A stretch of 64,000 nt of DNA from NCBI RefSeq assembly GCF_021026375.1, contig NZ_JAJNDB010000008.1, forward strand, positions 62,001-126,000, in the 5' to 3' direction. Position 1 is the stretch's first letter. Each line of letters starts with the position of its first letter. Both the position numbers and the translations under genes were made by a program. Of this stretch, positions 1-50,532 are shown piece by piece. Origin of the DNA: Actinomycetospora endophytica (GTDB lineage: Bacteria > Actinomycetota > Actinomycetes > Mycobacteriales > Pseudonocardiaceae). Below the pieces are notes generated by a model. It saw only the letters and a program-made list of their open reading frames with translations, was not told the origin of the DNA and searched no databases.

Positions 1-2444
1 GCCAGGTGCCGGCCGGGGTGGTCGTCACCCGCTACACCGCCGTCGGTGACGACCTGCTCGCCGTCGACGACGAGGTCGCGCAGTCCGGGTCCGACCCGGA
101 GCTCGCCGCGACCGTCCGTGCCCTCGGCGCGCTCTCCCGCGAGCGGGCCGAGCTCGCGACCGAGCGCGCCCAGCTCGGGGCCGCCTATCTCGCCGGCGGG
201 TTCGAGCCCGGCGGCGCCCAGGACCTCGTCGAGGCCGACGCCGCGCGCAGCGGCTACGAGGCGCAGTTCCGGGCGGCGGCCACGGAGGCCCAGGCGCAGT
301 CCTACGACGACGTCGTCGCCGGACCCGACGTCGACCAGACCGAGGGCATCCTCGACGGCGTCCTGCGGCCGGGGGCGACGTCCGCGTCGAGCCCCACGGT
401 GTCGGGCACCGTGCCTGGCGGACCGCCCGCCGCCCAGGCCTGGGACACCGCGTCGTCCGGGGCGCTCGGCTCGCTGCACACCGTCGAGAGCTCGCTGGTG
501 ACCGCGGCCCACGACCGCGCGGCGGCGCTGCGCTCGAGTCAGATCACCACCGCCGTCGTCGCCGGCCTGGTCGCCCTGCTCGTCGTGCTGATCGTCCTGG
601 TCGCGACGATCCTCGTGGTCCGGTCGCTCACCCGGCCGCTGCGGGCGCTGCGGCGCGGCGCGCTCGACGTCGCCGACGACCGGCTGCCCACCCTGGTCGG
701 CCGGATGGGACGCGAGGACCCGTCGCGGGTGGGCACCGAGGTCGAGCCCATCGACGTCCGGTCCGACGACGAGATCGGCGAGGTCGCGCGGGCGTTCGAC
801 GAGGTCCACCGCGAGGCCGTGCGCCTGGCCGCCGCCGAGGCCCGTCGTCGTGCCGCGACCGGGGCCATCGTCGTGAACCTGTCGCGGCGCACGCAGTCGC
901 TGGTGGAGCGCCAGATCGCGCTGATCGACGACCTCGAGGCCGGCGAGGACGACCCGGACCGCCTCGGTGACCTCTTCCGCCTCGACCACCTCGCGACCCG
1001 CATGCGGCGCAACGGCGAGAACCTGCTGGTGCTCGGCGGCGAGGAGCCGCTGCGGCGCTGGAACCGCGTGATGCCGCTGTTCGACGTGCTGCGGGCCGCC
1101 GCGTCGGAGGTCGAGCAGTACGAGCGGGTCGAGGTCCGCGCCATCCCCGAGGTGTTCGTCGCCGAGGACACCGTGAGCGACCTGGTGCACCTGCACGCCG
1201 AGCTGATCGAGAACGCCACCGCGTTCTCCGCGCGGACCGCGCCGGTGCGGGTCGGGGCCACCGTGCTGCGCGACGGGACGGCGCTCGTCGAGATCTCCGA
1301 CCGCGGCATCGGGCTCGCCGCGGACGAGCGGGACGCGCTGAACGAGCGGCTCGCCGTCGCCGGGGAGCCCGCCGACCTCGGGGCGGACGCGTCGCGGCGG
1401 ATGGGCATCGTCGTGGTCGCGCGGCTGGCCGCACGGCGCGGCGTGCGGGTGCGGCTGCGTCCCGGCGACGACGGCGGCACCACGGCGACCGTGTCGGTCC
1501 CGGCGCAGCTGTTCGCGGCCGAGGGGCCGCGCGAGGTCGCCTCCGACCGCGGCGCGGGAGGTCGCCCGGCCGCGCCCCCCGCCGCGGTGGCTCCCGACGA
1601 CGACGGCGCCCCGGGCTGGTTCGGCGGCGCCCCGCTCGCCGCCGCGGGCTCGGCCGGGGCGGCGGCCGCGGGCGGGTCGGGCGCGTCGTCGACCCCGGCG
1701 CCGGAAGCTCCGCCGGCCGCTCCGGCCTTCGTCCCCACCGCGGCCGGCACCACCGCCACCGGGTTGCCGCAGCGGGCGCCCGGCGCGAACCAGGTCCCGG
1801 TCGGCCCGCCGCCGGACGACGCGCCCGCCCCGCCGCCGAGCCGCTCCGCCCGGCCGGCGCCGCGGCCCGCGCACGCCCGGGCGGACACCACCCGTGACGA
1901 CGCCCCGGCCTGGGACCGCTCGCCCGCCGCCGTGCGCCACCGCTACGCCGGGGTCGCGCAGGGGCGGGCCCGTGCCCGGGTCGAGCAGACCGGCTCCACC
2001 CCGGCCGCCGGGACCCCCCGGGCCGACAACGGAGGCGCCCATCGGGCGGCCACCCGACCGGCACCCGAGCCCGGGCCGACGCCGGCACCCGAGCCGGCTC
2101 CGACGCCGCCACCCGAGCCGGCTCCGACGCCCGCACCCACTCTGCGCCCGATGACCGCCCACCCGGCGAGCGGGACCGCCGCCGACCCGGTCGCGAACCC
2201 CGTCGCCGACGGGACCACCGCCGACGGGCTGCCCCGCCGCGCGCCGGGCGCCAACTACGTCCCGGGCGCCGCCGACCCCGCGCCGGATCCGGTCACCACC
2301 CCGACGACCTCGGGCCCGGCGGGATCCGGCCCGGCCTGGGACCGTTCGGCGGAGGCCGTCCGTGCCCGGTTCGCCGGGTTCCAGGCCGGCCGCGACCGCG
2401 CCCGCACCACCAGCACCGTCCACTCCGAGGAGGCCCGACCGTGA
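1..2444 (+). CDS. CvnA-like sensor histidine kinase (NIT-HAMP-HATPase), 5' truncated by window edge
   Basis: The reading frame is already open at base 1, so the N-terminus lies outside the window. Counting from the GTG at 6, residues about 8-100 look like the helical NIT sensing domain. A membrane helix follows at about 178-205, then HAMP, a dimerisation helix region (about 295-350) and a HATPase domain (about 385-505) with an N-box (ELIENA) and a G1-like DRGIGL. The last 300 residues are Ala/Pro-rich. They contain two copies of a module made of GLP-RAPGAN-VP, a linker and AWDRS-AVR-R-AG. Downstream are a roadblock protein, a DUF742 protein and a GTPase, which is the conservon order. In conservons the kinase is thought to signal through these partners rather than a classical response regulator. 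The signal sensed is unknown. Confidence 0.9.
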
Positions 2445-2848
2445 TGACGAGCGGGGACCAGCACACATCGGCGAGCGATCTCGACTGGCTCGTCACCGAC
2501 TTCGTCGAGCGCGTCCCCGGCGTCGCGCACGCCGTCGTCGTCTCCTCCGACGGGCTGCCGATCGCGCGCAGCGCCGAGGTCCCCGCCGACCGCGCCGACC
2601 AACTCGCCGCCATCACCTCCGGCCTGGCCAGCCTGACCGGCGGGGCCGCCAAGGTGTTCCAGGGCGGGCCGGTCGACCAGACGATCATCGAGATGCGGCA
2701 CGGCACGTTCCTCGTCACCGCGATCTCCGACGGGTCCTCGCTCGCCGTGCTCGCCGCCCCCGGCTGCGACATGGGGCTGGTCTCGTACGAGATGGCGTTG
2801 CTCGTGGATCGCGTCGGACACGGCCTGAGCCCCGCGGCCCGCCCGTGA
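2441..2848 (+). CDS. CvnB-like roadblock/LC7 domain protein
   Basis: This 135-residue protein is about one roadblock/LC7 domain, the usual CvnB size. The start of the domain ([20 protein letters not shown]), the following [10 protein letters not shown] strand and the central [11 protein letters not shown] segment are typical. Family members act as MglB-like partners or GAP-like factors for small GTPases, here presumably the GTPase at 4607. The ATG at 2441 overlaps the stop of the kinase gene, and its own TGA overlaps the GTG of the next gene. This argues for translational coupling across the conservon. Confidence 0.93.
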
Positions 2849-4629
2849 GCACGCCCCCCGGACCGGAGTCGCGGGACGGCCCGCCGCGGGCGCTGGTCCG
2901 GCCCTACACGCTGACCGGCGGTCGCACCGCCGCCGCGGACTCCTGGCCGCCGGAGACGGTGGTGTCCGCGACCGCGCGGGTGCCCTCGCCGCGCACGCCC
3001 GCACCGTCCCGTCCCGCCGACGGCCGCGATCTTCCCGACGGCGACCTGCGCCGACTCGCCGACCACGTCCGCGGCCCGGTGTGGCTGCCCGGCGATCCCG
3101 GGTTCGCCGAGGAGATCGCGTCGTCGTACTCCAGCGTCGCGCACCGGCCGCGGGTGCTCGTCGGGGCGCGCGACCCGGGCGACGTCGCCGCGGCGGTGTC
3201 GTTCGCCGTCGAGCGGGGTCTGCCCGTCGCGGTGCAGGCGACCGGGCACGGCGCGGTCCGCCCCGTCGACGACGGCGTCATGCTCTCCACCCGCCGGATG
3301 CGCACGCTGCGCGTCGATCCCGACGCCCGCACGGCCACCGTCGGCGCCGGGGTGGTCTGGAGCGAGGTGATCGCCGCGGCGGCCCGCCACGGCCTCGCGC
3401 CGCTGTGCGGCAGCGCGCCCGCCGTCGGCGTCGTCGGGTACACCCTCGGCGGCGGGATCAGCCCGCTCGCGCGGACGTTCGGGTTCACCGCCGACCACGT
3501 CGTCGCGGCCGAGGTCGTCACCGCCGACGGTCACGTCCGGCCGGCCGACGAGGCCCACGAGCCCGAGCTCTTCTGGGGGCTGCGCGGCGGCAAGGGCAAC
3601 CTCGGGGTGGTCACGGCCCTCGTCGTGCGGCTGTTCCCGATCACGAGCCTCGTCGGCGGCGGGCTGTTCTTCGACGGCGACGCCGCGGACGCCGTCCTGC
3701 GCGCCTACCCCGGCTGGACCGCCGGGCTCTCCGAGGCGACGACGACGTCGGTGTCGCTCTCGCACCTCGGGCGCCGCAACCGGGCCGGCGGCCGGTCGCC
3801 GACGGTGCACCTGCGGTTCGCGCACGTCGGCCCGCCGGAGGCCGCCGCGGAGATCCTCGCGCCGATGCGCGCGCTCGTCCCGGCACTGGACACCGTCGGC
3901 GAGCTGCCCTTCGAGGCGATCGGCACCATCCACGACGACCCCACCGAACCCGCCGACGTCTGGAAGCGGGGCCTGCTCCTCGGCGACCTCCCGCCCGGCG
4001 TCGTCGAGACCGTGCTGCGCACCGCCGGGCCGGACGCGACGGACCCGGTCGCCGGCATCGAGATCCGGCACCTCGGCGGGGCGATGGCCCGCCGGCCGCA
4101 GCCCGACAACGCCGTCGGGGGCCGCGACGCCCGGTACGGGGTGTTCATCGTCGACGCGCACGGCGCTGACGGCGGCGCGCCGGAGCGGGGCCGGCGGCTG
4201 GTCGAGGCGCTCGAGCCGCACTCCACCGGCGCCACCGTGAACTTCCTCGGCACCGTCACCGACTCCGACGTCGTCGCGACCGCCTGGACCCGCGAGGACT
4301 ACCGCCGGCTGCGCGCGCTCAAGGCCCGCGTGGACCCCGACGAGGTGTTCCGGTTCGGCTACGCCGTCCCGGCGCTGGCCGACGACCGCCCCGACGACGA
4401 CGCGGGCCTCGACACCGGACCGCCCGAGGCCCGGGCCATCCTCGAGGCCGCCCGGCCGTGGCGCTCGCTCGCCGAGATCGCGGCCGGGACGCGGCTGCCG
4501 CTCGGCGTCGTGCGCGTCCTCGTCACCGACCTCGCCGACGCGGGCCACGTCCGCGTCCACCGCCCCGGCGCCGGGGCGGACACCGACCAGCTGGAAAGGG
4601 CACTGCGTGGACTCCAGCGCCGGATCTGA
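2845..4629 (+). CDS. DUF742 (CvnC-like) protein interrupted by a complete FAD-linked oxidase domain
   Basis: The GTG at 2845 overlaps the preceding stop and gives 594 residues, against about 120 for ordinary DUF742 proteins. Residues about 15-45 are the DUF742 N-terminus ([13 protein letters not shown]). Residues about 528-594 are its winged-helix half ([20 protein letters not shown]). Between them, about residues 70-512, lies a full berberine-bridge/PCMH-type FAD domain. It has the flavin-loop ATGHGA with a His able to bind FAD, the [10 protein letters not shown] motif, FTADHV and a C-terminal [10 protein letters not shown]. The Cys used for the second flavin bond in bicovalent members is replaced (SAPAVG). 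The reading frame is continuous and the gene overlaps both neighbours, so it is probably expressed as one protein. Function is unknown; a redox-sensing or flavin-dependent conservon component is an inference. Confidence 0.88.
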
Positions 4630-5287: not shown

Positions 5288-6915
5288 ACCCCGCGGCGAT
5301 CATGCTCGACCTGCTGCGCGACGAGGGCGTCGACCGCGTCTTCGGCAACCCCGGCACCACCGAGCTGCCACTGCTGCGGGAGCTCGCCGGGACGTCGGAT
5401 CCGTCCTACGTGCTCGCGCTGCAGGAGTTCTCCGCGGTATCGGCCGCCGACGGGTACGCGCGCGGCACCGGGCGCCCGGCGTTCGTGTCGGTGCACGCGG
5501 TGCCCGGGGTCTCCAACGCGCTGATCGGGCTGAACAACGCGCGGCGGTCCCGGACGCCGCTGGTGGTCACCGCCGGGCAGCAGGACCAGCGCTTCCTGCG
5601 CGACGAGCCGATGCTCGGCGGCGACCTGGTGGGCCTGGCCAGCTCGGCGTGCCTGTCCGCCGAGGAGATCCACACCCCCGGCGATCTGCTGCCGCTGCTG
5701 CGCCGCGCGTTCGCGCGGGTGCGCCGCCAGCCGTCGGGGCCCGCGTTCCTGTCGATCCCGATGAACCTGCTGGGCGGCGACGGCTGGTCGGACGAGCTCG
5801 CGCTGCCGGCCCGGATCCCCGTGCCCGACGTCGGAGCCGCGACGACGATCGACGAGGCCGCGGCGGTGCTGGCTTCCGCCGAGCGGCCCGCGATCCTGGC
5901 CGGCGACCGCGTCGGGGCGACCGGGGCGATCGCGGAGCTGACCGCGGTGGCCGAGGCCCTGGGCGCGACCGTCTACCCGCAGCCGCAGTACGAGTACGTC
6001 GACGCCGACTCCGAGCACCCGCTGACCGCGCCGTCGCCGTTCTTCACCGGCACCGAGATCGCCAAGGCGCTGGCCGGCCATGACGTGCTGCTGGTCGCGG
6101 GCGCGGCGATCCGGCCGCAGACGTGGACCGCTGACCGCCCGATGCCCGACGGGATGCGGGTGGTCCAGCTCGACGACGACCCGGGCGAGCTCGGACGGTC
6201 GTACCCCGTCGAGGTCGCGATGGCCGGGGCGATCGGGCCGTCGTTGGCGGCGCTGGCGTCGGCGCTGACTCCCGGGTCGCAGTCTCGTCGGGAGACCGTC
6301 GAGCGCCGGGCCGGGCGGACCGCGGAGGCGCTGGTGGCGGAGCGGACGGCCTGGCGGGAGCGGGCGCGGGCCGGGCTGTCGGGGGCGGGGCCGATCGAGT
6401 CGGCGAGCGCCGCGCAGGCCGTGGCGGACGCGCTGGCGCCGGGGAGCGTCGTCGTCGAGGAGGCACCCACGAGCGGTCCCGACCTGCGGCGCGCGCTGGT
6501 CCAGCGCGCGGCCGGGGACTACCACAACTCGTCGGGCAACGGCGGGCTCGGCTGGGGCGCCGGGGCGGCGGTCGGGCTGGCGCTGGCGCATCCGTCGCGG
6601 CCGGTCGTCGGGTTCCTCGGCGACGGGTCGGCGATGTTCGGCGTGCAGGGGCTCTGGACCGCCGCGCGCGTCGGCGCGCCGGTGACCTACGTCGTCGTCG
6701 ACAACGGCGGGTACCGGGCGGTCAGCGACGCGCTGCCGCCGGGCTTCGCCGGGACGAGGCTGGGCGGCGTGGACTGGGCCGGGCTGGCGGAGTCGATGGG
6801 GCTGCGCGGCACGCGGGTCGAGCGCGGCGAGGAGATCGGGCCCGCGGTGGCGGCCGCGCAGCGCAGTGGCGAGCCGTCGCTCGTCGTCGTACCCATTGCC
6901 GGGGGCCAGGCATGA
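5284..6915 (+). CDS. Thiamine-diphosphate-dependent enzyme, benzoylformate decarboxylase-like
   Basis: The ATG at 5284 overlaps the stop of the GTPase gene (ATGA). The 543-residue product has the three-domain ThDP architecture. The N-terminal PYR domain has NPGTTELP and the catalytic Glu in LALQE, and a conserved His lies in VHAVPG. A central transhydrogenase-like domain follows, then a C-terminal PP domain with the cofactor motif GDGSAMF...NGGY. The closest family by eye is benzoylformate decarboxylase (MdlC). The Ser of its NPGS motif is Thr here, and the second active-site His of the Pseudomonas enzyme has no obvious counterpart. Substrate is therefore uncertain; a 2-keto acid is likely. 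Its place inside a conservon operon is unusual. Confidence 0.85.
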   Translation: MNPAAIMLDLLRDEGVDRVFGNPGTTELPLLRELAGTSDPSYVLALQEFSAVSAADGYARGTGRPAFVSVHAVPGVSNALIGLNNARRSRTPLVVTAGQQDQRFLRDEPMLGGDLVGLASSACLSAEEIHTPGDLLPLLRRAFARVRRQPSGPAFLSIPMNLLGGDGWSDELALPARIPVPDVGAATTIDEAAAVLASAERPAILAGDRVGATGAIAELTAVAEALGATVYPQPQYEYVDADSEHPLTAPSPFFTGTEIAKALAGHDVLLVAGAAIRPQTWTADRPMPDGMRVVQLDDDPGELGRSYPVEVAMAGAIGPSLAALASALTPGSQSRRETVERRAGRTAEALVAERTAWRERARAGLSGAGPIESASAAQAVADALAPGSVVVEEAPTSGPDLRRALVQRAAGDYHNSSGNGGLGWGAGAAVGLALAHPSRPVVGFLGDGSAMFGVQGLWTAARVGAPVTYVVVDNGGYRAVSDALPPGFAGTRLGGVDWAGLAESMGLRGTRVERGEEIGPAVAAAQRSGEPSLVVVPIAGGQA

Positions 6916-7868
6916 GGCGCGCGCTGCTCGGTCTGGTGGCCGTCCTGGTGCTGGCGAGCGGATGTGCGTCGAGCGCGCCGTCCGCGGCACCGGAGCGCAC
7001 GAAGATCACCGTGACGAGCCTGCCGATCGTCGACGTCGCGCCCCTCTACCTCGCCCAGCAGAACGGCTTCTTCCGCGACGCCGGGCTCGACGTGACGATC
7101 AAGCCGCTGAGCTCCTCGCCGCAGGGCCTCGCGGGGCTCGCCGACGGCAGCATCGACATCGTCGCGGGCGCCAACTACGTCAGCTACCTGGAGGAACAGG
7201 CGCGCGGGAACGCCGACCTGCGGGTGGTCGCCGAGGCGGCGCTAGCGTCGCCGGGGCTGGACCAGGTGGTCGCGTCGCCGCGGTCGGGGATCCGGGACGC
7301 CTCGCAGCTGGCCGGGCGCACGATCGCGGTCAACACCCCGCCGCCGAACATCCAGACCCTCGCGCTGGACCGGGTGCTCGCCGCGCGCGGCGTCGACCCC
7401 CGGACCGTGCGCTACGTGCCGATGCCGTTCGCGCAGGCCGTCACGGCGCTGGGCAACGGGTCGCTGGACGCGGCGTGGCTGGTGGAACCGTTCGTCACCC
7501 AGGCCGAGCAGGCGGTGGGCGCGCTGCCGGTGATCGACCCCGCGAGCGGACCGACCGCCGCGCTCCCGCTCGACGGCTACTTCACCACCTCACGGTTCGC
7601 CGAGCAGTTCCCGCACACGGTCGACGCGTTCCGGTCGGCGCTGGCGCGGGGTGCGGCGCTCGCGGCCAACTCCCGCGCGACGACGGCGGCGCTGCCCGGG
7701 TTCGCCCCGGTCGACGCGCCGACCGCCACGCTCATCACCCTGCCGAACTATCCGACGACGGTGGAGGCGGCGCGGATCCAGCGCGTCGCCGACCTCATGA
7801 CCCAGGCCGGCATGATCGACCGTCGCCTCGACGTGGCGTCGCTGATCGCGGGGGGCTCCCCTTCATGA
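6912..7868 (+). CDS. ABC-type substrate-binding lipoprotein, NMT1/THI5-like
   Basis: The 318-residue protein starts with a lipoprotein signal peptide whose lipobox is LASGC, followed by a Ser/Ala/Pro linker. The mature part has the NMT1/THI5/SsuA-like fold signature. It opens with LPIVDVAPLYLAQQNGFFRDAGLDV, shown here in two parts: LPIVDVAPLYLAQQ and NGFFRDAGLDV. A ligand-loop region GLADGSIDIV and a hinge region GRTIAVNTPPPN follow. Such proteins bind thiamine precursors, sulfonates, nitrate or aromatic acids. No permease or ATPase gene is nearby, so it is an orphan binding protein. Start and stop overlap both neighbours by four bases, placing it in the conservon operon. Confidence 0.88.
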   Translation: MRRALLGLVAVLVLASGCASSAPSAAPERTKITVTSLPIVDVAPLYLAQQNGFFRDAGLDVTIKPLSSSPQGLAGLADGSIDIVAGANYVSYLEEQARGNADLRVVAEAALASPGLDQVVASPRSGIRDASQLAGRTIAVNTPPPNIQTLALDRVLAARGVDPRTVRYVPMPFAQAVTALGNGSLDAAWLVEPFVTQAEQAVGALPVIDPASGPTAALPLDGYFTTSRFAEQFPHTVDAFRSALARGAALAANSRATTAALPGFAPVDAPTATLITLPNYPTTVEAARIQRVADLMTQAGMIDRRLDVASLIAGGSPS

Positions 7869-8272
7869 CCGAACCCGAACCGCACCACCGGGAGCCTCTG
7901 CCCGGGGAGGTGCGCTCGTCGCGGGACCCGTGGGCGGACGGCCCGCTGCCCGGTCTGGTGTTCGACGACGTCACCGGGCGGGTGATCCGGGCCGACGCGG
8001 TCTCCGAGGAGACGGGGACGCCGGTGCCGGCGAGCGAGGCGCCGTCGTCGGAACCCGGGCCGTCGTCGGCGGACGCCGGTCCGTCGTCGTCGGGGGTGCC
8101 CGGACCGGCGCACGTCCCGGACCGGGGCCCGTCGCGGGACGACCGTCGTCGTGACGGGCGCGCGATGGTGCCGCTGCTGGCGCGGGCGCTCGCCTCGCAG
8201 CTCGAGCAGGTCGCGACCGACGACGAGACGACGCCCGACGGCTGGTGGTTCACGCCGGACACCGACCGCTGA
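7865..8272 (+). CDS. Hypothetical protein at the end of the conservon operon
   Basis: This 135-residue protein has an ATG at 7865 overlapping the preceding stop. The N-terminus has an ordered-looking segment (GLVFDDVTGRVIRADA). A Ser/Pro/Asp-rich linker of about 45 residues follows, then a short amphipathic C-terminus (ARALASQLEQV) ending in WWFTPDTDR. No family is recognised. There is no signal peptide or membrane helix. The tight coupling suggests it is a real gene serving the same operon. Confidence 0.7.
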   Translation: MTEPEPHHREPLPGEVRSSRDPWADGPLPGLVFDDVTGRVIRADAVSEETGTPVPASEAPSSEPGPSSADAGPSSSGVPGPAHVPDRGPSRDDRRRDGRAMVPLLARALASQLEQVATDDETTPDGWWFTPDTDR

Positions 8273-47722: not shown

Positions 47723-47848
47723 CGAAAATGCCTCCCCGTAGAGGTTGTTAGCGTTCACAACGAGCGTCCGGGATAGATCCGACATGGGCAAGCGGAGGGT
47801 GACGATATTGACACGCGCGGTATCCGATTGCCCGCGACCGATGGATCC

Positions 47849-49132
47849 GTGCTAGACGACCGGCCCGTGACGGTCGGTCCGGGTCGTGCCCGCCAGGAAG
47901 AGATCTACCGCGACGGCGTCTCGGGGCGGCGCCCCCGGGTGCCCACCGCGCCCGCCGAGCGCGAGCGCCGGGGTCGGCGGGCGATGAGCCGGGCGGCGGA
48001 CGCGTACGTCAGCGGTGGCGCCGGGGCCGAGGCGACGATGCGCGCCGACCGGGCCGCGTTCGGCCGGTACGAGATCGTCCCGCGCGTGCTCCGGGGTTCG
48101 GTGGAGCGCGACCTCTCCGTCGACCTGTTCGGCCGGCGCCTCCCCTCACCGCTGCTGCTCGCCCCGATCGGCGCGCTCGACCTCGTCCGCCGCGACGCCG
48201 ACCTCGCCGTCGCGCGCGGGGCGGCCGCCGCGGGCGTCCCGATGATCGTCAGCAACCAGGCCGGCTCCCCGCTCGAGGCGATCGCGGCCGCCGGGGGTGC
48301 CGCGCCGCGCTGGTTCCAGCTCTACTGGTCGACCTCCGACGACCTCGTCGACAGTTTCCTGCGCCGCGCCGAGGGCAGCGGGTGCGACGCCGTCGTCGTC
48401 ACCCTGGACACGACGATGCTCGGCTGGCGCCCGCGCGACCTCGACCGCGGGCACCTGCCGTTCAGCCGCGGCCTCGGGATCGCGCAGTACACGTCGGATC
48501 CGGTGTTCCTGCGGCTGGCCGCGGACCGGGCATCCGCGCCGCGTTCCGGACCCGCGCCGCGCATCACTCCGCGGGCCGTACGGACGCTGCTGGAGATCTC
48601 CCGCCACCACCCCGGGGGCCTCCTGGACAACCTCACCTCGCCGCTGCCCCGGGCCGCCGTCGAGACCTTCCTCGACGTGTACTCGCGCCCGCACCTGTCG
48701 TGGTCCGACCTCGCGAGCCTGCGCGGGCGCACCCGCCTCCCGATCGTGCTCAAGGGCGTCCTGCACCCCGACGACGCGCGCCGTGCCCTCGACGCGGGCG
48801 TCGACGGGCCGCTGGTCTCGACCCACGGCGGACGGCAGGTCGACGGCGCGGTCGGCTCGCTGGACGCGCTGCCCGGCGTCGTGGACGCCGTCGCGGGCCG
48901 GGTGCCGGTGCTGCTGGACTCGGGGGTGCGCACCGGGGCCGACGCCGCGCTCGCCCTCGCGCTGGGGGCGACCGCGGTGTGCCTGGGCCGGCCGTGGGTG
49001 TGGGGGCTCGCGCTCGCCGGGGCGGGCGGGGTCGAGCAGGTCGTGCGGGACGTGCTCGCCGAGCTCGACCTGACCGTCGGGCTGGCCGGGGCGCGGACGC
49101 CGGCCGAGGTCGAGGTCCGGGCGCGTCGGTGA
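47849..49132 (+). CDS. FMN-dependent alpha-hydroxy-acid oxidase, lactate 2-monooxygenase-like
   Basis: The 427-residue TIM-barrel flavoprotein has PLLLAPIGALDL, PRWFQLYWSTSDDL, VVTLDTTMLGWRPRDL, LPIVLKGVLHPDDARRALDAGVDG (shown as LPIVLKGVLHPDD and ARRALDAGVDG), STHGGRQVDG with the catalytic His-Arg, and VLLDSGVRTGADAALALALGA. The loop and LGWRPRDL are typical of lactate 2-monooxygenase-like enzymes. Thr replaces the usual Asn in SNHGGRQ. Oxidation of a 2-hydroxy acid is likely. The start is uncertain: GTG at 47849 or 47867, or TTG at 47828. Confidence 0.87.
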   Translation: MLDDRPVTVGPGRARQEEIYRDGVSGRRPRVPTAPAERERRGRRAMSRAADAYVSGGAGAEATMRADRAAFGRYEIVPRVLRGSVERDLSVDLFGRRLPSPLLLAPIGALDLVRRDADLAVARGAAAAGVPMIVSNQAGSPLEAIAAAGGAAPRWFQLYWSTSDDLVDSFLRRAEGSGCDAVVVTLDTTMLGWRPRDLDRGHLPFSRGLGIAQYTSDPVFLRLAADRASAPRSGPAPRITPRAVRTLLEISRHHPGGLLDNLTSPLPRAAVETFLDVYSRPHLSWSDLASLRGRTRLPIVLKGVLHPDDARRALDAGVDGPLVSTHGGRQVDGAVGSLDALPGVVDAVAGRVPVLLDSGVRTGADAALALALGATAVCLGRPWVWGLALAGAGGVEQVVRDVLAELDLTVGLAGARTPAEVEVRARR

Positions 49133-49206: not shown

Positions 49207-50532
49207 ATGACGAGCACCGAGACCGACTTCCCGGCCGACGTCCGCGGCTCCGTCCTGCGCCGCGGCGACGACGGCCTGCCCGACGGGGTCGTCGGGTTCC
49301 AGACCGCGGACCCGCACCGACCCGACGTCGTCGTGAGCGCCCTCGACGCCGACGATGTCGTGGCCGCCGTGCGCCACGCCGCCGCGCACCACCTCCCGGT
49401 CGCCGTCACGGCGACCGGCCACGGCCACATGACCGGACTCGCGGGCGGGGTCCTCGTGGCCACGGGGCGGATGCGCGGGGTGAGCGTCGACCCGGCGTCG
49501 CGGGTGGCGCGGGTCGAGGCCGGCGCGCGCTCGGCGGACCTCGTCGCGGCGGCGGCCGGGCACGGGCTGGCGCCGGTGTCGGGGTCGTTCCCGGGGGTCG
49601 GCGTCGTCGGCTACACGCTCGGCGGCGGGCTGGGCCTGCTCGGGCGTGAGTCCGGGTGGGCGTCCGACCGGCTGCGGGAGGTCGAGATCGTCACCGCGGA
49701 CGGGGTGCTGCGGCGGGTCGGGCCGGGCGACGAGCTGTTCGCGGCGCTGCGTGGCGGGCGGCCGGCGGTGGGCGTGGTGACGGCGGTGTCGGTCGGGCTG
49801 GTGCCGCTCGGGCCCGTCGTCGGGGGTGGGCTCTTCCTCGACGCCGCGGACGCGGACCGGGTCCTGCCGGTGGTGCGGCGCGTCGGCGAGGCGGCGCCCG
49901 AGTCGCTGGGCGTGTCGGTCGGGGTGATCCCGATCCCGGACCTGGAGGGCGTGCCGGCGCCGATCCGCGGCCGGACGGTGCTGCACGTGCGGCTGGTGGA
50001 CACCGACGGGGCGGCCGCGCGAGAGGCGGAGGCCGCGCTGCGGGCGGTGTCCCCGGTGCTGCTCGGTGGGCTGCGGGAGTTGCCGTGGACCGAGAGCGGT
50101 TCGATCTTCGCCGAGCCCGAGGTCCCGCACGCCTACGAGGGCATGAACGTGCTGGTGTCGTCGCTGTCCGACGCGGCGCTCGATGCCGTGGTGGCCGCCG
50201 CGCGCTCGGCGTCGGTGGGGTGCGTGGTCGACGTCCGGCGGCTCGGCGGCGCGCTGTCCCGCCCGGCCGACGGGCCCGACGCGGTCTCGTTCCGGGAGGC
50301 GGGATGGATCGTGCGGGTGCTGTCTTCGCGGGGGGAGGTCCCGGACGCGGAGATGCGGGCGGCGCACGCGGCGGTGCTGGCGCCGGTGGCTGAGGTGACG
50401 CTGGGTCGGATGGCGGGGTTCGTGTACGGCGGTGCGCCGGTCTCGGACGAGGAGCTGTACGCGCCGTCGGTGCGGGCGTTGCTCGCTCGGGTGCGGGAGG
50501 CGGTCGACCCGCGGGGGATGTTCGGCGGGTGA
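49207..50532 (+). CDS. FAD-linked oxidoreductase (berberine-bridge/PCMH type), paralogue of the domain inside 2845-4629
   Basis: The 441-residue protein has an FAD PCMH domain with [29 protein letters not shown] (flavin pyrophosphate loop) and IVTADGVLRRVGPGDELFAAL. The BBE-type C-terminus ends VREAVDPRGMFGG. The His of the ATGHGH segment may bind flavin covalently, and the bicovalent Cys is absent (FPGVG). The sequence pattern closely parallels the oxidase domain inserted in the DUF742 protein. The ATG at 49207 has GAGGATGAGG upstream. It lies 74 bases after an alpha-hydroxy-acid oxidase gene and may act on its product. Confidence 0.88.
   Translation: MTSTETDFPADVRGSVLRRGDDGLPDGVVGFQTADPHRPDVVVSALDADDVVAAVRHAAAHHLPVAVTATGHGHMTGLAGGVLVATGRMRGVSVDPASRVARVEAGARSADLVAAAAGHGLAPVSGSFPGVGVVGYTLGGGLGLLGRESGWASDRLREVEIVTADGVLRRVGPGDELFAALRGGRPAVGVVTAVSVGLVPLGPVVGGGLFLDAADADRVLPVVRRVGEAAPESLGVSVGVIPIPDLEGVPAPIRGRTVLHVRLVDTDGAAAREAEAALRAVSPVLLGGLRELPWTESGSIFAEPEVPHAYEGMNVLVSSLSDAALDAVVAAARSASVGCVVDVRRLGGALSRPADGPDAVSFREAGWIVRVLSSRGEVPDAEMRAAHAAVLAPVAEVTLGRMAGFVYGGAPVSDEELYAPSVRALLARVREAVDPRGMFGG

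Follow-up and report, generated by a model that had tools for sequence, protein, structure and literature searches.

A conservon in the genome of Actinomycetospora endophytica encodes a CvnC protein with a whole flavoenzyme domain inside it. The gene lies in a window of 64,000 nucleotides, by which the entire stretch of DNA analysed is meant (RefSeq assembly GCF_021026375.1, contig NZ_JAJNDB010000008.1, positions 62,001 to 126,000, forward strand). The fused protein is a real conservon CvnC whose DUF742 domain is split around the enzyme, and it is a new architecture within a known kind of system. Judging by the operon around it, the import and degradation of a compound may be coupled directly to a G-protein switch.

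Conservons are widespread in Actinomycetota, and their inputs and the role of CvnC are standing questions of the field. In the available part of one account (PMC13343842), CvnA is the sensor, CvnB the GTPase-activating protein, and CvnC the likely guanine nucleotide exchange factor of the GTPase (MfpD, MfpC). The same part describes the accessory proteins CvnE (a P450) and CvnF (a GAF protein) as encoded by separate genes that go with a CvnA lacking the NIT domain. In the available part of PMC8510531, joint action of CvnC8 and CvnD8 is the favoured view, and DNA binding by CvnC is discussed as well.

The open reading frame (ORF) of the fused gene begins with GTG and runs through 594 translated codons without a stop. 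Pfam recognises DUF742 in its product at 81.3 bits against a cut-off of 27, in two stretches. The main stretch, residues 522–592, corresponds to profile positions 38–113. The N-terminal piece was matched in a genome scan (C16:64887-65003, profile positions 4–42) at 23.4 bits, which on its own is below the cut-off. Between the two lie matches to FAD_binding_4 (93.4 bits against 26.4, residues 102–232) and BBE (25.6 bits against 20.6, residues 476–508). The profile check proposed in the sequence-only reading, which was based on the letters and their translations, therefore gives scores above the curated cut-offs for all three families.

Alignment with plain DUF742 proteins gives the same picture. 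Residues 16–44 and 526–594 align with seven proteins of the same genus, and with ten in a second alignment, while the 481 residues from 45 to 525 are extra. The final alignment is A5; the larger mixed alignments A2 and A4 were dropped because parts of the plain proteins were misplaced in them. The oxidase unit proper covers about residues 62–512, in agreement with the “about 440 residues” estimated earlier. Together with the Pfam matches, the alignment bears out the claim of a complete FAD-linked oxidase domain within a split DUF742. One detail has to be shifted: LPLGVV, in the second DUF742 half that was placed near residue 545, starts at residue 551. Unlike a usual conservon CvnC of about 120–136 residues, the protein has a DUF742 that is complete but split by roughly 480 residues.

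In plain CvnC, the insertion point is a loop that is only about twelve residues long and differs in length among paralogues. Predicted structures show the oxidase domain occupying the loop between strand 1 and helix 1 of what is modelled as CvnC's winged helix. The linkers on both sides of the oxidase domain have low confidence in the single-chain prediction. A sequence look-up of DUF742 against the PDB gave no significant match.

The inserted domain combines a FAD_binding_4 fold with a BBE C-terminal segment, as in the McrA/EncM branch of the VAO/PCMH family. Its closest relatives are the mitomycin radical oxidase McrA and EncM, and not the plant berberine bridge enzyme, a small correction to the “berberine-bridge-type” label given to it earlier. 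On the BagK/FevA1 model of NCBIfam the fused protein scores 398.6 bits against a cut-off of 800.

The residues expected of a working flavoenzyme can be followed through the alignment. Glu406 stands in the column of EncM Glu355, which is presumably a catalytic residue, and is kept in all 13 fused proteins, of which the window's own is one. His135 stands in the column of EncM His78, the residue to which FAD is covalently attached according to the available part of PMC7662398. It is kept in 11 of the 12 fused proteins with that column, again counting the window's own; P0012 has no letter there. Judged from the alignment, the histidine for an 8-alpha covalent FAD link is present in fused CvnC. A second, cysteinyl link has the motif CPxVG in bicovalent berberine bridge enzymes. 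By eye there is no cysteine at this position, and the nearby cysteine in PLCGSAP is a serine in P0010.

Selective constraint can be compared between the parts of the protein. A counting method applied to the window's gene and its A. termitidis counterpart gives a dN/dS of 0.30 in the oxidase, compared with 0.25 and 0.30 in the two parts of DUF742. Among near relatives, the oxidase is thus constrained about as strongly as DUF742. Against a more distant Pseudonocardia metagenome-assembled genome (MAG; locus L038), the ratio is 0.49 for the oxidase and 0.35 and 0.81 for the DUF742 parts, the last value being unreliable (69 codons, low dS). The inserted oxidase is probably active.

Fused CvnC proteins also occur outside this genome. 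The homologue set consists of the best 120 of 2342 homologues found among 8000 scored candidates, a selection from which distant fused proteins could be missing. In this set 13 proteins carry DUF742, namely the window's own and 12 others that are 53–91% identical to it, two of them fragments (P0012 and P0016). The loci read in A. termitidis (L037) and the Pseudonocardia MAG correspond to P0007 and, as it appears, to P0010, so neither adds to the 12. A further full fused gene is found in genome G150, which belongs to the same family as the window but to another genus. The same architecture is thus present in other Pseudonocardiaceae (Actinomycetospora, Pseudonocardia and G150), where the sequence-only reading had advised looking for it.

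In a tree of 117 tips, from which P0012, P0013 and P0015 were left out, the 12 fused oxidase domains form one clade with a support of 0.992. Therefore, a single insertion event is the simplest reading. P0013 and P0015 (Cellulomonas soli) are proteins of 939 and 941 residues without DUF742, and P0013 reads as a tandem pair of oxidase domains.

The fusion is seen in a few soil actinobacteria. At E <= 1e-100 it is found in 2 of 18 genomes of the genus and 3 of 200 of the family. In a class-wide draw of 296 genomes only the window's own had it, at a cut-off (E <= 1e-115) so strict that weaker fused genes would escape. As a control, 123 loci that match the oxidase were examined for DUF742 within 1.5 kb of it; only five have it, and these hold three genes, those of A. 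termitidis, the Pseudonocardia MAG and G150. Some oxidase matches with in-frame stops extended as far as the DUF742 part; of these, L009 (G051, 13–578) has no DUF742 match.

Other fusions of DUF742 were sought with residues 515–594 among proteins of about 327–1040 residues. Only the fused-CvnC family was returned (eight proteins), by a search that is sensitive only to shared words and missed five known fused proteins. The idea that oxidase and conservon were neighbours before they fused is unsupported. Within up to 10 kb on each side, cvn genes lie near 2 of 78 free-standing oxidases (L042 and L106) and a similar transporter of the major facilitator superfamily (MFS) near one; none of the 78 loci has DUF742 within 1.5 kb. 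At L042, in Streptosporangium amethystogenes, the free-standing oxidase is about 50% identical to the insert and is flanked by two conservon gene sets.

A second fusion is found in the sensor gene of the same operon. The cvnA gene starts upstream of the window and encodes MFS, NIT, HAMP and HATPase domains in one frame (L145:13927-18444, equal to G000:C16:59927-64444). Its ORF has 1505 residues, or 1425 from the likely ATG at G000:C16:60167, which lies after a tRNA gene. NIT scores 130.8 bits; HAMP is 0.5 bit under its cut-off in the full ORF and 0.5 bit above it in the window part. Hydropathy spans at residues 566–584 and 880–898 flank NIT, so that the protein has the HATPase domain and membrane spans of a conservon CvnA.

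In A. termitidis the same symporter frame of cvnA is open over 1366 residues. A search with residues 90–900 found the order MFS, NIT, HAMP and HATPase in five database proteins (P0122–P0126, 76–89% identical), of which P0126 is the A. termitidis protein. Both fusions, that of CvnA with the symporter and that of CvnC with the oxidase, co-occur in the window's genome and in A. termitidis. P0124 and P0005 come from contigs of the same size (918963), which suggests that both fusions are together there too. The Pseudonocardia MAG has the symporter and cvnA as two distinct genes side by side. The best models for the symporters of these three genomes are metabolite/H+ and shikimate transporters, with cut-offs not reached; for TIGR00883 (metabolite/H+ symporter), with its cut-off of 443.45 bits, the scores are 364.6 in the window's genome, 371.1 in A. 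termitidis and 396 in the MAG.

The fused gene is the third in a run of seven overlapping genes, with successive overlaps of 4, 4, 23, 4, 4 and 4 bases (Table 1). The genes cvnA to cvnD stand in order on one strand, and CvnD is a small GTPase with a P-loop, as in other conservons. The order of the first six genes is kept in A. termitidis and the Pseudonocardia MAG at 51–90% protein identity, with cvnB 82–90% identical in these two syntenic loci. G150 retains cvnA, cvnB, the fused gene and cvnD together with the binding protein.

Table 1. Genes of the overlapping run and parts of the fused gene, in window positions (ThDP, thiamine diphosphate).
Feature	Position	Strand	Basis
cvnA, C-terminal part, 812+ aa: remainder of NIT, then HAMP and HATPase	1..2444	+	Pfam, NCBIfam
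cvnB, Roadblock/LC7, 82.8 bits	2441..2848	+	Pfam
cvnC::FAD, fused gene, 594 aa	2845..4629	+	ORF, Pfam
DUF742 N-terminal part, residues 16–44, VRPY..GRT..ETVV; predicted beta strand 39–42	2890..2976	+	scan, alignment, predicted structure
Insert, residues 45–525: complete oxidase domain (McrA/EncM-type, FAD) with a linker on either side	2977..4419	+	alignment
His135 codon, column of EncM His78 (covalent FAD)	3247..3249	+	alignment
Glu406 codon, column of EncM Glu355	4060..4062	+	alignment
DUF742 C-terminal part, residues 526–594, predicted winged helix	4420..4626	+	Pfam, alignment, predicted structure
cvnD, Ras-like GTPase, intact GAFGVGKT loop	4607..5287	+	Pfam ATP_bind_1, motif
ThDP enzyme, benzoylformate-decarboxylase-like, 543 aa	5284..6915	+	profile matches, PDB relatives
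NMT1/SsuA-type solute-binding lipoprotein	6912..7868	+	Pfam; lipobox by eye
Small ORF, last of the overlapping run	7865..8272	+	only tail matches, L037:15102-15251 and L038:15038-15139

Among solved structures, benzoylformate decarboxylase (PDB 1bfd and relatives, 202.6 bits) comes closest to the ThDP enzyme, yet the latter scores under the NCBIfam equivalog cut-off for benzoylformate decarboxylase (NF005485, 315.6 against 493 bits). Homologues elsewhere (45–50% identity) were studied in four of the seven regions fetched, by scanning eight neighbours. They adjoin SDR genes in L207, L210 and L211, the last of which also has a GMC flavoprotein gene. The neighbourhoods fit a pair of oxidation and decarboxylation in three of the four regions.

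No ABC permease or ATPase gene was identified beside the binding protein in the loci of the window, A. termitidis, the Pseudonocardia MAG and G150, among the part of the neighbours that was scanned. A paralogous binding protein (42–45% identical) adjoins an ordinary conservon in five congeners (G002, G005, G011, G012 and G013), with confirmation by tblastn in four. The binding protein and the NIT-type conservon may thus be an older association, and it is possible that an NMT1-type binding protein presents its ligand to CvnA as an input. In the window and at L213, L214, L215 and L216, NMT1-type binding proteins adjoin NIT-type conservons, both fused and ordinary ones, and no ABC partners were noticed.

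The operon's proteins have this anatomy, and coupling of them to the GTPase is the most likely interpretation. In the favoured model, which is about evenly poised between right and wrong, the conservon has been turned into a transport-oxidation-signalling unit in which import and flavin oxidation inform the GTPase. A small organic acid, or a compound related to one, would be recognised and taken up by the binding protein and the symporter-CvnA. Anchored to the membrane complex through the DUF742 parts, the oxidase domain would oxidise the compound with O2, and the ThDP enzyme would process the product. Substrate binding or flavin reduction would alter the action of CvnC on CvnD, and the switch would report metabolic flux and not the mere presence of a compound. 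An effect on CvnD is proposed because the oxidase is predicted to sit in a loop of CvnC, and CvnC is the likely exchange factor in the Mfp system. Import, oxidation and feedback are favoured because CvnA here has NIT and the extra enzyme is within CvnC. In the most specific form of the model, each oxidase turnover would set the nucleotide state of the GTPase, through substrate occupancy or flavin redox state; such a flux-reading switch is possible but doubtful.

Several observations weigh against the transport-oxidation-signalling model. The pathway is not constant, since G150 shows no ThDP match in the 20 kb of sequence fetched and has another MFS protein ahead of cvnA. At L209 the neighbours of the ThDP gene encode an EAL protein and an aminotransferase and no redox enzyme. 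P0014 has a tyrosine in place of His135 and a degenerate oxidase C-terminus with DUF742 still recognised, so the flavin link, as read from the alignment, is not retained in every fused relative. The C-terminal DUF742 part also has a high dN/dS between A. termitidis and the Pseudonocardia MAG (0.85, few sites), as it has between the window and the MAG. The low-confidence linkers permit a loosely tethered enzyme without allostery, and the coupling of the operon's proteins is drawn from sequence and predicted structure.

Such a tethered enzyme is the subject of another model, in which DUF742 is only a docking handle. It would place an ordinary oxidase on the membrane complex by the symporter, with substrate channelling to the ThDP enzyme, and the GTPase would neither sense nor gate. 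The insertion into a loop of variable length, the probably flexible linkers, the conserved active-site residues of the oxidase and the further enzymes in the same gene run would all be expected of a scaffold. However, all four conservon genes and an intact GTPase loop are retained, which is beyond the needs of a handle, and the comparison of the window's gene with that of A. termitidis shows equal constraint on the DUF742 parts and on the oxidase. A scaffold is unlikely on balance, though it has to be taken seriously.

By analogy with CvnE and CvnF, the oxidase fold might instead serve purely as a sensor of flavin redox state, oxygen or a ligand, with turnover irrelevant. Conservon accessory proteins have been proposed as sensory inputs (in the available part of PMC13343842), and P0014 keeps a recognisable DUF742 without the flavin-linking histidine. 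Yet His135 and Glu406 are otherwise kept, and the accessory proteins go with a NIT-less CvnA, whereas here NIT is present with two flanking hydrophobic spans. The operon also contains a transporter and a decarboxylase-like enzyme. The transporter fusion, the decarboxylase-like and binding-protein genes and the tRNA-bordered cassette described below point to metabolite uptake and oxidation in preference to a pure redox sensor, which is improbable.

It is very improbable that internal starts or proteolysis free the oxidase and a C-terminal DUF742 piece, leaving the fusion without functional meaning. GTG codons are common in this GC-rich ORF and the linkers are of low confidence in the predicted structure, but the C-terminal piece would lose the N-terminal DUF742 strand, and no fused gene read has a stop between the parts. 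Finally, an assembly artefact or chance ORF, for which nothing was found in favour, can be dismissed, as the junctions recur unchanged in independently assembled genomes of Actinomycetospora and Pseudonocardia, at least two genera, and likewise in G150, and homologues share the architecture.

The operon lies between a tRNA-Ala(CGC) gene (L145:13958-14031) and a glyoxalase-like gene. Of the 15 congeners in which the flank gene is present and the fused gene is missing, seven were covered by a fetched region (L237–L243); six regions contain both flanks and L238 (G001) the downstream flank alone. An ordinary DUF742 gene with a separate oxidase gene at this locus, which the sequence-only reading had named as evidence against itself, was seen in none of the seven. 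None of them matches the operon's genes at E 1e-10, except that the tRNA-borne stretch ahead of cvnA matches in four. In G016 and G010 the tRNA-Ala gene is separated from the glyoxalase-like gene by about 180 bp and the operon is absent; in G015 and G003 the tRNA is there and the operon is not.

In the Pseudonocardia MAG the operon begins about 290 bp past a tRNA-Leu gene (L038:4744-4829), so that the cassette adjoins a tRNA gene in two genera. The operon looks like a cassette of about 10 kb that comes and goes. Integration directed by the tRNA is unsupported: the tRNA end and the far border share no stretch of at least 11 bases, and no integrase was found among the neighbours scanned with Pfam. 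Between two other flank genes, which lie side by side in G001, G015 and G016, the genomes G010 and G003 have about 10 kb of other DNA (L237:4857-14964; L240:5054-15979); this is a second variable spot in the same region.

Known conservons, such as Cvn8 and Cvn9 of Streptomyces coelicolor and the mycobacterial Mfp system, share with the present one the order cvnA-B-C-D and the NIT-HAMP-HATPase, Roadblock, DUF742 and Ras-like GTPase domains. They differ in that here a flavoenzyme lies in CvnC, a symporter on CvnA, and decarboxylase-like and binding-protein genes in the operon. In contrast to conservons with CvnE or CvnF, the oxidase is inside CvnC and CvnA has NIT. McrA, EncM and 6-hydroxy-D-nicotine oxidase, VAO/PCMH proteins with a BBE-type C-terminus, are free-standing, whereas the domain here is nested in DUF742. 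An example of a transporter domain ahead of a sensor-kinase domain is CbrA. CvnA is likewise transporter-first, but here it is an MFS metabolite/H+ symporter that precedes a NIT-bearing conservon CvnA.

No printed description of a DUF742-flavoenzyme fusion or a CvnA-transporter fusion was found in open-licence PMC papers, consistent with the earlier remark that no described system of this kind was known. The main text of PMC13343842 has no word starting with “flavin” or “fusion”, and “MFS” and “transporter” are absent as whole words.

The operon offers candidates for both of the field's questions, built into the proteins: the sensor carries a transporter, and CvnC carries an enzyme that is coloured and can be read by spectroscopy. 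The substrate could be sought by flavin bleaching, and its effect on GTP/GDP exchange could then be asked directly. If the coupling is true, a bacterial small-GTPase switch would be driven by metabolite turnover, a loose parallel to the way eukaryotic Rag GTPases sense nutrients. If the flux reading is true, transport, catalysis and small-GTPase signalling would form one covalent and complexed machine.

Some further observations concern neighbouring and related genes. In G150 the MFS protein before cvnA carries carboxypeptidase-regulatory-like repeats (L229:15020-17125), and in the Pseudonocardia MAG a protein with repeats of this type comes after the binding protein. The window itself contains a free-standing oxidase at 49207-50532 (+) that is 39% identical to the inserted domain. 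Just before it, at 47828-49132, lies an ORF that by eye resembles an FMN-dependent alpha-hydroxy-acid dehydrogenase.
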